Origin: Nitrospirota bacterium
GTDB lineage: Bacteria; Nitrospirota; Leptospirillia; Leptospirillales; Leptospirillaceae
Assembly (NCBI GenBank): GCA_021828375.1
Contig: JAKARS010000004.1
Span: 1-64,000, forward strand
Direction of reading: 5' to 3'
DNA: 64,000 nt
Positions 3,890 through 8,587 of this stretch are shown here, piece after piece. Every line of letters starts with the position of its first letter. Position 1 is the first letter of the stretch. A program made the translations under genes and the position numbers. The notes below the pieces were generated by a model. It was not told where the DNA came from, made no database searches, and worked only from the letters and a program-made list of their open reading frames with translations.

Positions 3890-5170
3890 AGTGAATCTCC
3901 TGGAAGGTCAAGTCAGAGCAAGGTCATGGGAGAGGCATCCCCGAAAACTTTATCATGAAAAGCGCCGCAGAACCTCATCCTTCAGGGTGGGGCTGCAAGG
4001 CGTGATGGTCAATGTTTGAAGCGGTGTACGACCCTCGATATATTGCCTAATATGAGCTGCACGTTCAAGTAACGGCTGTGTCGGACCAAAAACAGAAAAC
4101 TCTCCACCCCCGGCAACGGGAAGAGGGCTGTTGGCCCCGGAACCATTTCCCAGCGCACAGCAAGAATGCATGGGAGTGATATGGGGGGGCTATCCCTTCG
4201 AGCAGGTTGGAGTGACTCCCTCCCTGAAAAATCCCGACCGATTCTCGATAGGGTCGACTCCCAATCCCTCTAGAACGAGTTCGGATGGGTCGATCCCGCA
4301 TTGCAGACCTTTATTTCCACGAGGAAAAGCGGGAGGAATGGCGGCAACGTATTGGCCCCCTCTCCTTTATGTCGACCCCATTGCCCTCTCTGGCGTCGAC
4401 CTGGCTTCTCTTCGGACGTGGGGTGGGCTGATCGGGCTTATGGCGGTCGGGAAAATGATGCCCCTTGGAACCATGAGAGAAGCTTCGTTCGTTGGAATAT
4501 CCCCAAACGGGTCTCCTGCGCAGGAGGATCCCGTTTTTGTGGCGGGGCAGGGACACCTTTGGGCCGAGTCTGAATCATGTGGTCTCCCCCCTCTCGCTTC
4601 GCCGGGAACCGAGTCAGAAACGGATTTTCTTTTCCCGGTTCCCCAATCATTTCAATTCTGTCAAGAAGATCGTTCGAGACTGGGGCCAATTTTCAGAAGG
4701 TTCGACAGGCTCTCTTTTCTCAGAACCATTCTCCTGAACAAGGATGAGAGTGGCGATCAGGAGTATCGGAAGGTGAACTCATCCTCGGCATCCCCAAGCT
4801 GTTCTTCCTCCCGGGCCACGGCTGAAAATGCTCCTGTCCGACCAGGCATGAGCCTCGTCGGACAGCGGGAGGGAAAAGGACCCGGACCACAAAGCCTTTC
4901 TGAATATTTTGAGGCTCGGGCTTAATCCCCGGCAGCTCCGGCGGTTACTCCAGGGAGCAGTCATCCTCATTTTCCGGAAAGGTCAGTATCATCGAATTTT
5001 TTCTCCGAAATGATTTTTCAGGGCCGAGGTTTCTGATAGAATAAAAAGATGATCTTTTAAGGAGATCCTGAAGCCGGGGCATCGCCAAAGTCGATCTGCG
5101 AGGCTGCGATTCCCTACGTCGGCGGGCAGGCCCGTGTCATGTCATTTCCACACTATGCCAGGAAGGAAAC
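3890..5170. other. 1.3-kb stretch without a convincing gene; possibly decayed coding sequence
   Basis: Between hemG and tig no frame gives a recognisable protein. The longest ORF (4131-4925 plus, 264 codons, TTG start without a good ribosome site) has biased, low-information composition rich in Ser, Pro and Gly. A different frame from the ATG at 4285 reads like a real protein start (MGRSRIADLYFHEEKREEW) but stops after about 48 codons. Another protein-like run (DPDHKAFLNILRLGLNPRQL) appears near 4880 in the same frame after several stops. This pattern suggests a gene broken by frameshifts and stops, but I cannot name the parent. An intact orphan gene at 4131-4925 is the alternative. Confidence 0.35.
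5014..5042 (+). promoter_or_regulatory. Extended -10 promoter for tig-clpP-clpX
   Basis: TGATAGAAT at 5034-5042 fits an extended -10 element (TGn before TAGAAT). The -35 at correct spacing is weak (TTTTTC, 5014-5019). The leader to the tig start would be about 120 bases. There is no recognisable heat-shock operator. Confidence 0.4.
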
Positions 5171-6577
5171 GTGTCCATGAGTTTGAAAATTGAGCCGGGT
5201 GATGGCGCAAAGAGAAAGTTTCAGCGGGGCTATTCTCCCGAGGAGGTCCGGACCCGGGTCGACAGGACAATCCAGGAGTTTCTGCGAGATGTAAAGGTTC
5301 CCGGTTATCGGCCTGGTCGTGTTCCCGCCTCTTATGTCCGTAGCCGCCCCTCCCATATGGCTTCCATTCATGAGGAAGTCACGAAGGGCATCCACTCGGA
5401 AGTTGTCGGAGATCTGATCAAGGGAGCCACTGAGACAGTCGTTTTTCTTGATCCTGAGGATTTTTCCGTCACGGAAGAGAATGAAAAGTCGGGATTGACG
5501 GTCACGGGAACCATTGAGGTCTTCTCCCTTCCTGAAAACTTCGTCTACGAAAAAATCGGGCTCTCTCCCGAATCCCTTCCCGCTGTCAGCAAGGAAGAAG
5601 TCGAATCGGCGATCACCCTCCTTGCGAAGCAAGGCGCCACTCAGTTTGTTCAGGATCTGCCTGAGGACACTCCGGCTGAGGACGGGGATTTGGTCGGCTT
5701 TACCTTCTCTTTCGTTGATCCCGCCACGGGCCTTGCCAGGGACGGACGCCAGACCGTGACGGTCGGCGACCCTCGAGTTCCGGAGATTCTGACCCGCTCC
5801 CTGATTGGGAAGAAATCCGGTGAGAGCTTTACCGGAAAAATTCCCTTCAATATCCCTGGTGAAAAAAAGGGCGAGCGCAGCCGCAACGAAACGCATGAAG
5901 CCACGATCGGAATCCTCTCGGTCCGTCGCCTGAAGCCCTTGACACGAGAAGAGCTTTTCAGCTCTCTTCTCGGTGGCAAGGAGCCCGAGGAGGGCCAGAC
6001 TCTTGAGAGCGTTGTTGAACTGAAGGTCCTCGAGCAAAAGCTGACGGAGATCCTCAATCGAAAGATGGAGGAGTTGGTGGTAGAGGTTCTTTCACGGAAT
6101 GCCCTGCCGGTTCCCGAGGGTCGGATCGATCTTGAGATTGCGCGGATGAAGCAGGCCGGGATGTCTGATGCGGAAATCGACCGGGAGAGAGTCAAGAAGG
6201 ACACCATGTGGTGGTTTATTCTTGATGAGCTCGCGGCAAAGATCCCTGTTGCCCCCGGAGTCCAGAGGGTCGAGCAGGAATTCTACGCCCTGATTCAGCG
6301 TGCCGGGAGCCCAGGAAAAAATGAAGAGCGTCGCAACGAATACATTGAACAGGCCGTAGTCTCAGCTCGTAGACGCCTGACGGAAGAATATCTCTTGAGG
6401 CATTCTTCCTTTTCCGGATGGGACGACTTCTTTGCCCCCGGAGGGGTTCTTGAAAAACTGAATTGGGGATCGTTTGGTGTCATTCCCCCGCAATCAGAGC
6501 AAATAGGCCAGGCGCACGATCATGACCACGATCACGACCATGATCACGATCATGACCATGCAGGGCATAACCACTAG
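5171..6577 (+). CDS. tig: Trigger factor with histidine-rich C-terminal tail
   Basis: Trigger factor binds the ribosome exit tunnel and chaperones nascent chains. The N-terminal domain shows the pattern of the ribosome-binding region ([15 protein letters not shown], the counterpart of the family GFRxGxxP loop). A central FKBP-like part ([12 protein letters not shown]) and a helical C-terminal domain follow. At 468 residues it is slightly long because the last 20 or so residues are alternating His and Asp ([20 protein letters not shown]). The start is GTG at 5171 or ATG two codons later; GGAAGG precedes both. It leads the tig-clpP-clpX cluster, a widespread order. The tail could bind Ni, Co or Zn like the tail of SlyD, but this is inference. 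Confidence 0.93.
6515..6577 (+). repeat. Imperfect 6-base tandem repeat coding for (His-Asp)n in tig
   Basis: The end of tig is a run of GATCAT, GACCAC, GATCAC and GACCAT units, all reading Asp-His. The codons differ from unit to unit (both GAT/GAC and CAT/CAC), so the repeat is kept at the protein level while the DNA has diverged. Confidence 0.85.
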
Positions 6578-6639: not shown

Positions 6640-7245
6640 ATGCTTATTCCGATGGTTGTGGAGCAAACGAACAGGGGCGAGCGGGCCTACGACATCTATT
6701 CGCGTCTGCTTCGCGACAGGATCATTATTTTGGGGACCCCCATTGACGATACGGTGGCGAATCTTGTCATTGCCCAGATGCTTTTTCTTGAGTCAGAAGA
6801 CTCTTCAAAGGATATCAATCTCTACATCAACTCGCCGGGGGGCATTGTGACGGCGGGGCTAGCAATCTACGATACGATCAAATTCATCAAGCCGGATGTG
6901 TCCACCATATGTATCGGACAGGCTGCCAGCATGGGAGCTTTTCTTCTCTCAGCAGGTGCCAAGGGGAAACGCTATGCGCTTCCGAATGCCCGCATTATGA
7001 TCCATCAACCGATGGGGGGCTTTCAGGGCCAGGCCACCGATATCGAGATCCATGCCCGGGAAATCCTGAAACTCAAGGCAGATCTCAACCGAATGATGTC
7101 GGAGCATTGTGGGCAGCCGGTGGAAAAGGTGGCCCAGGATACGGATCGGGATTATTTCATGTCAGCCAAGGAAGCGAAAGATTATGGACTGATTGACTCC
7201 GTGATCACGTCACACAGGATCGACACAGAAAAGACGTCAAAGTAG
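6640..7245 (+). CDS. clpP: ATP-dependent Clp protease proteolytic subunit
   Basis: ClpP is the barrel serine protease that partners ClpX. The chosen ATG at 6640 gives [20 protein letters not shown], the classical mature N terminus, and has CGGGAG 9 bases upstream; the ORF-track start at 6580 adds 20 unsupported residues. The catalytic triad is visible as Ser97 (GQAASMGA), His122 (MIHQP) and Asp171 (DTDRDYFM). Length is 202 residues, normal. It lies 62 bases after tig and 37 bases before clpX, so one transcript is likely. Confidence 0.96.
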
Positions 7246-7282: not shown

Positions 7283-8587
7283 ATGGCCAGAGAACGGAAA
7301 GATAAGAATGGAACGGGTGAATCGGAGATTGCCTGCTCATTCTGCGGAAAAAGACGGGAGGACGTGCGTCGGCTGGTTTCTGGTCCGGGTGTGTACATCT
7401 GCGATGAATGTATTGAGCAATGCTCAGCGATAATCGCCGAGGCATGGGATGCTGAGCCCGAAAAGGTGGCGGTTCCTAATCTGATGAAGCCATCCGAGAT
7501 CAAGCGGGCACTCGACCAATACATTATCGGTCAGGAAAGAGCAAAAAAAATTCTCTCGGTAGCTGTTTATAACCACTACAAACGGGCCCGGGCGAACAAG
7601 ATCTCCGAAGATGTGGAGCTTCAGAAGGGCAATATCATTATGCTTGGTCCCACCGGGACCGGGAAGACCCTGCTCGCACAGACCCTCGCACGAATCCTCG
7701 ATGTTCCTTTCGCGATCGCCGATGCCACGACGCTCACGGAGGCCGGATATGTTGGAGAGGACGTAGAAAACATCATTCTCAAGCTTCTTCAGGCCGCGGA
7801 TTATGATGTGGAAAAGGCCGAGTGGGGAATCATCTACATTGACGAAATCGACAAAATTAGTCGAAAGTCTGAGAATCCTTCAATCACAAGGGATGTCTCT
7901 GGCGAAGGCGTGCAGCAGGCCCTTCTCAAGCTCGTGGAGGGGACGGTCGCCAATGTTCCACCCCAGGGAGGACGCAAGCATCCTCATCAGGAGTTCATTC
8001 AGGTCGATACGACGAATATCCTCTTCATCTGTGGAGGAGCCTTCGTGGGGCTTGACTCGATCATCTCCCAACGTCTTGCCCGGAAAACAATGGGCTTTGG
8101 GGCCGAGGCCAAGCCGGCCCAGGACCGAATCCTGTCAGGGAAGCTGTTTATGGAGGCCCGTCCGGACGATCTTCTCAAATATGGAATCATCCCCGAGTTT
8201 ATCGGCCGCTTTCCGGTGATGGCGATTCTCGAGGATCTTGACGAAGAGGCTTTCCTCCAGATCCTGACCCAACCGAAAAATGCGCTGGTAAAGCAGTTTG
8301 AAAAGCTTTTCGCCATCGAGAAGGTCAAGCTTCGCTTTACGGAAGAAGCGCTTCGCGCCGTTGCTCACAAGGCCTATACGCAGAAGACAGGTGCCCGGGG
8401 GCTTCGGGCCATTTTGGAGGAGGTCATGCTCGACCTGATGTATGACATCCCCTCCCTGTCCAATCTCTCGGAGGTGGTCATTACCGAAGGCGCGATCACG
8501 GCGAAAGAGCCTCCGACGTTGATCTGGGGGGAGAAGAAGAAAGAGTCAGCGGCATCTGGGGAAGATCCGGGCTCCCTGTCGGCCTGA
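7283..8587 (+). CDS. clpX: ClpX, AAA+ unfoldase of ClpXP
   Basis: ClpX unfolds tagged proteins and feeds them to ClpP. The 434-residue protein has the N-terminal zinc-binding domain (Cys 18, 21, 40, 43), Walker A GPTGTGKT (123-130), Walker [10 protein letters not shown], and the ClpX hallmarks GYVGEDVE, the RKH pore loop (GGRKHPHQE) and IPEFIGRFP with its arginine. All catalytic residues are intact, unlike the AAA+ protein at 25-28 kb. It is the last gene of the tig-clpP-clpX cluster and is followed by a G/C hairpin. Confidence 0.97.

Follow-up and report, generated by a model that had tools for sequence, protein, structure and literature searches.

A putative metal-binding His-Asp tail on the trigger factors of Leptospirillaceae

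Trigger factor, a ribosome-bound chaperone that assists newly made polypeptides in folding, is normally an abundant protein of the cytosol. In its canonical form, represented by E. coli Tig (PF05697, FKBP and PF05698 domains), it lacks a His-Asp tail. Metal-binding tails are already known on three other chaperones: SlyD, the GroES protein HspA and GroEL1. SlyD combines an FKBP-fold domain with a His-rich C-terminal tail, often containing Cys, which binds nickel and other divalent ions (PMC7840056), while Helicobacter HspA and mycobacterial GroEL1 are general chaperones with lineage-specific His-rich tails that bind nickel or copper (PMC7840056, PMC10170517). In the open-access literature, we found no report of a metal-binding or His-rich tail on trigger factor. 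Here we describe a His-Asp tail on the trigger factor of a bacterium from the Leptospirillaceae, an acid-mine-drainage family.

The stretch of DNA analyzed here, 'the window' in the following, comprises 64,000 nucleotides of a Nitrospirota genome (GCA_021828375.1, contig JAKARS010000004.1, positions 1 to 64,000). Its sequence and translation confirm a trigger factor reading frame at 5171–6577 on the + strand, as the initial annotation had described it. The features of the locus are as follows:

5160–5166, + strand: probable ribosome-binding site AGGAAGG for the ATG at 5177, from the sequence; relatives carry comparable GGAAGGA-type sites ahead of this ATG
5177–6577, + strand: tig, the trigger factor gene, 466 amino acids plus stop; the GTG at 5171 is an alternative start
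5177–5617, + strand: N-terminal ribosome-binding domain, residues 1–147 (Pfam Trigger_N)
5618–5935, + strand: FKBP-fold (PPIase) domain, probably inactive (residue comparison, AF2 strands, Foldseek matches to SlyD FKBP domains)
6512–6574, + strand: His-Asp tail, first His codon at 6515 (sequence, AF2 disorder, pN/pS)
6640–7245, + strand: clpP, the immediate downstream gene, assigned by inspection of the translated reading frame
7283–8587, + strand: clpX, assigned by inspection from a zinc-binding motif and the Walker motif GPTGTGKT in the translation

Judged from the sequence, the ATG at 5177 is more likely to be the start than the GTG at 5171, because AGGAAGG lies 10 bases upstream of the former and only 4 upstream of the latter, and because all relatives have an ATG at the same position.

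The encoded protein is an orthologous trigger factor. It matches Pfam Trigger_N with an E-value of 9e-15, and a profile built from 20 trigger factors of the family finds E. coli trigger factor (1w26) as its best match in the PDB (E 2e-14, positions 1–418). Likewise, the top Foldseek matches of an AF2 model based on the family alignment are trigger factors over most of their length, led by the E. coli structure 2vrh (E 1.8e-16) and including 1w26 and other bacterial as well as chloroplast proteins; the FKBP domains of SlyD rank after them. The ribosome-binding loop reads GYRPGRVP (GFRKGKVP in E. coli), and its pattern G-Y-R-x-G-x-V-P is invariant across 20 family members, with Tyr in place of Phe in all 21. 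The protein thus shares the three-domain fold, the ribosome-binding loop and the adjoining clpP and clpX genes with the canonical system. Unlike it, however, it has a His-Asp tail and has lost the aromatic residues of the PPIase site, and its C-terminal chaperone domain, recognizable by Foldseek, falls below the Pfam cut-off for Trigger_C (best value in the family 1.9e-5). It is also distinct from SlyD, which is built from an FKBP domain with an insert-in-flap core, whereas the protein described here is a full-length, ribosome-binding trigger factor with a degenerate FKBP domain. HspA and GroEL1 are different chaperones in unrelated lineages, and their likeness to this protein is therefore one of convergence.

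The initial annotation had described the last 21 residues as nearly all His and Asp, encoded by repeats with diverged codons, and we find both to hold: 10 His and 7 Asp account for 17 of the 21 positions, GAT and GAC as well as CAT and CAC are mixed, and the array has decayed, with Tandem Repeats Finder scoring a match of only 75–76% for a period of 6 and 89% for one of 18. The tail contains no Cys, which sets it apart from many SlyD tails. With pLDDT values below 50 for residues 445–466, it is predicted to be disordered on an otherwise well-predicted trigger factor (mean pLDDT 86). At the DNA level, the pattern (HX)4H is found in only two genes of the same genome (71.6% complete), the trigger factor tail and HypB, and a reversed control pattern occurs nowhere in this assembly, so the tail is not a product of chance. 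The HypB gene (L112, 10470–11330; G000:C35) lies within a [NiFe] hydrogenase cluster and carries its His stretch, HHHHPHDHSHG, at the N-terminus.

To follow the tail among relatives, as had been proposed, we read the trigger factor C-termini in 21 genomes that belong to its GTDB family; one of the proteins is truncated at the end of a contig. Of the 20 complete ones, 19 carry the tail, across four genera and down to 33–36% sequence identity, but one relative does without it: G017, whose genome is 99% complete. The recurrence in 19 genomes rules out an assembly or frame artefact as the origin of the tail, while the tail-less trigger factor of the near-complete G017 implies that it is dispensable in some relatives. 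Outside the family, none of 49 complete Nitrospirota trigger factors has such a tail, in line with the earlier statement that trigger factor normally lacks one. The ending AGHNH is common to the window genome and genus g3, whose trigger factors are only about 34% identical, and the tail is therefore most simply regarded as ancestral and lost once; on these sequence comparisons, it was probably gained a single time in the family. Its length varies, with about 6–13 His per tail. In L002, for instance, it is 4 residues shorter at about 95% identity, and in L017 and L018 the aligned tails are irregular.

This variability raises the question of whether the tail is a neutral low-complexity repeat that arose through slippage of hexanucleotide units in a C-terminus that tolerates them. 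The length difference between close relatives such as L002 would fit, as would the other low-complexity tails seen at alphaproteobacterial trigger factor C-termini. The codons speak against it. In 13 pairwise comparisons of relatives, which are not all independent, the His columns have a pS of 0.91 and a pN of 0.024, and their ratio of 0.026, at saturated synonymous sites, is somewhat optimistic and likely an underestimate, since aligning a periodic tail favors the pairing of His with His. The remainder of the protein has a ratio of 0.129 and the tail as a whole one of 0.127, indicating that the His positions are strictly kept, under strong purifying selection, and the spacer residues are not. 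Independently of any alignment, the family tails contain 95 CAT and 81 CAC codons, no Tyr codon and 3 Arg codons, whereas under neutrality Tyr, Arg and other codons one step away should have accumulated at the His positions in keeping with the change seen at third positions. Moreover, the codons are scrambled, in contrast to the uniform CACGAC or CATGAC units of many Pseudomonadota repeats, and the tail has been kept across four genera. We therefore reject neutral slippage on the codon evidence; it is largely refuted, and we would give it very little chance of being correct. The tail is flexible in length yet selected for histidine. This agrees with the earlier proposal that selection acts on the protein; length, whose free variation had been named as a sign of neutrality, does vary, yet the number of histidines has not evolved neutrally.

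The window protein has no FKBP_C match, and among the 20 trigger factors of the family there is a single weak one (E 0.07), even though the FKBP fold is predicted and resembles FKBP and SlyD structures. The positions corresponding to F198, Y221 and F233 of E. coli trigger factor, which we take to be residues with a role in PPIase catalysis, are all non-aromatic in the window protein. Across the family, the first is Leu in 17 of 21 proteins, the second is non-aromatic in all 21, and the third is Ala or Ser in all 21; at this last position, 44 of the 49 trigger factors from other Nitrospirota families and all 70 alphaproteobacterial ones have an aromatic residue. These substitutions suggest that the PPIase domain of the window protein is probably inactive. 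Furthermore, the 21 family genomes, of which four are at least 95% complete and one of these four is a single contig, yielded no FKBP_C protein and hence no SlyD, while the same search was positive in 13 of 14 control genomes. In a survey of acidophiles, slyD was likewise found only in Pseudomonadota (PMC10490939). Given the loss of the aromatic residues and the absence of FKBP_C proteins, the family may be devoid of FKBP-type prolyl isomerase activity altogether. The analogy to SlyD drawn in the initial annotation is apt, SlyD being missing from the whole family.

We consider it probable that the C-terminus of the family trigger factors is a flexible, selected divalent-metal-binding appendage that buffers metal in the cytosol and may also serve in handing it over. 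By analogy with peptides for which Cu(II) and Zn(II) binding was observed in vitro, namely DHDHHHGHAH from the GroEL1 tail and VDHDHDH (PMC10170517, PMC9472272), we infer that the tail binds divalent metal (Ni, Zn, Cu or Co) and that buffering is its selected function. An (HD)n array could provide Zn(II), Ni(II), Cu(II) or Co(II) with several sites of two or three imidazoles, together with carboxylates, and on a protein as abundant as trigger factor normally is, it would constitute a high-capacity buffer of moderate affinity. It might also hand metal over to metallochaperones. In these roles it would take on a job that falls elsewhere to the His-rich tail of SlyD, missing here. It is consistent with such a role that HypB, the only other protein of the same genome with the (HX)4H pattern, is a nickel GTPase. 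Against it stand the varying length and pattern of the tail (6–13 His), in which no defined site is conserved, the tail-less but near-complete relative G017, and the tolerance of trigger factor C-termini for other tails, such as the Lys/Ala-rich ones of alphaproteobacteria. A metal-binding tail, as originally suggested, therefore seems right in kind; the idea that this trigger factor senses metal is unsupported, as is its supposed fit to the habitat (see below). A further-reaching proposal, that the protein is a ribosome-associated metallochaperone or metal buffer with a dead PPIase domain, carrying the SlyD-type metal tail in a family that has lost SlyD and all other FKBPs, is one we regard as unlikely. 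If it were true, metal status could be coupled to the handling of nascent chains or to the insertion of metal into newly made metalloproteins, for example [NiFe] hydrogenase. In any case, the family may offer a natural case of a metal module on a different chaperone, in a lineage without SlyD and with a tail-less relative for comparison.

A narrower version would make the tail a nickel-specific replacement for SlyD, which stores Ni(II) and passes it on to HypB for the maturation of [NiFe] hydrogenase (and urease). The E. coli SlyD tail works with HypB (PMC7840056), SlyD is missing from the family, and the window genome encodes HypA, a HypB with the stretch HHHHPHDHSHG and a complete large subunit of [NiFe] hydrogenase (E 8e-230); the tail-less G017, in turn, also lacks HypA, HypB and a full-length hydrogenase. 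However, HypB already has a His stretch of its own, and tails are present in genera g2 and g4 (G014, G016, G018), where we found no HypA, HypB or strong hydrogenase match, as well as in several genomes of the same genus that likewise lack them, several of all these genomes being incomplete. Across the 21 genomes, the tail overlaps only partially with HypA, the NiFe large subunit and cobW/HypB, with no clean co-variation, and a single tail absence gives this comparison no statistical power. Nickel delivery to HypB is plausible in a genome with hydrogenase and HypAB, and it is the most specific form of the general metal-binding role that we favor, but we give it a low probability.

Similar runs are found in alphaproteobacterial trigger factors around Parvibaculum, 27 of 70 of which have His-Asp-type runs near the C-terminus, counted as at least 6 His within a 20-residue window in a sample that leans to near relatives of Parvibaculum; L203 was left out of this count, as its histidines are clustered well upstream of the C-terminus. 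In these proteins (L140, L146, L148–L154 and others), as in the window protein, the His-Asp run is located in the C-terminal region. Unlike in the Leptospirillaceae, however, it is usually followed by a Lys/Ala-rich stretch, and the FKBP_C domain has been preserved, with matches at E 5e-20 to 8e-18 in each of three genomes searched, two of which encode a separate FKBP as well. The alphaproteobacterial runs are of independent origin, and their recurrence points to trigger factor as a protein on which His tails have arisen more than once. Two alphaproteobacterial trigger factors, L199 and L204 (G128, G132), share, exactly or nearly so, a Cys-containing ending of 37 residues, which comes nearest to a SlyD tail in appearance.

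Organisms related to Parvibaculum are taken as neither mine-water inhabitants nor acidophiles. The initial annotation had argued that a metal-binding tail would fit a metal-rich habitat, an argument weakened by the frequency of His-Asp runs in these trigger factors (27 of 70) and by the tail of the Leptospirillaceae being probably one ancestral gain in one family. The same comparison bears on a reading of the tail as a pH-responsive or solubility bristle, whose charge shifts with the cytoplasmic pH of an acidophile and thereby tunes ribosome release or aggregation. Histidine has a pKa near 6, the tail is rich in His and Asp and predicted to be disordered, and the family is likely, by inference, to be acidophilic; the runs in Parvibaculum-related organisms speak against such a scheme, and elsewhere such runs mostly sit in metal-handling proteins. 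We regard a pH-responsive role as very improbable.

That (HD)n runs mostly belong to metal-handling families is seen in 29 Pseudomonadota proteins that carry them. They include nine cobW/HypB proteins, four cation efflux proteins (Cation_efflux, CDF), two each of UreE, NicO, ZrgA, SlyD-type FKBP and trigger factor, and one each of ZnuA and nitrile hydratase. In a Pseudomonadota trigger factor (L253:424–2013, G471), a His-Asp run of 19 residues is not terminal, but lies inside the C-terminal chaperone domain. Two further hosts are unusual: the sequence HDHDHDHDH occurs at the N-terminus of a cytochrome oxidase subunit I (L255:1447–3027) and in an RNase E/G (L239:1027–3027).
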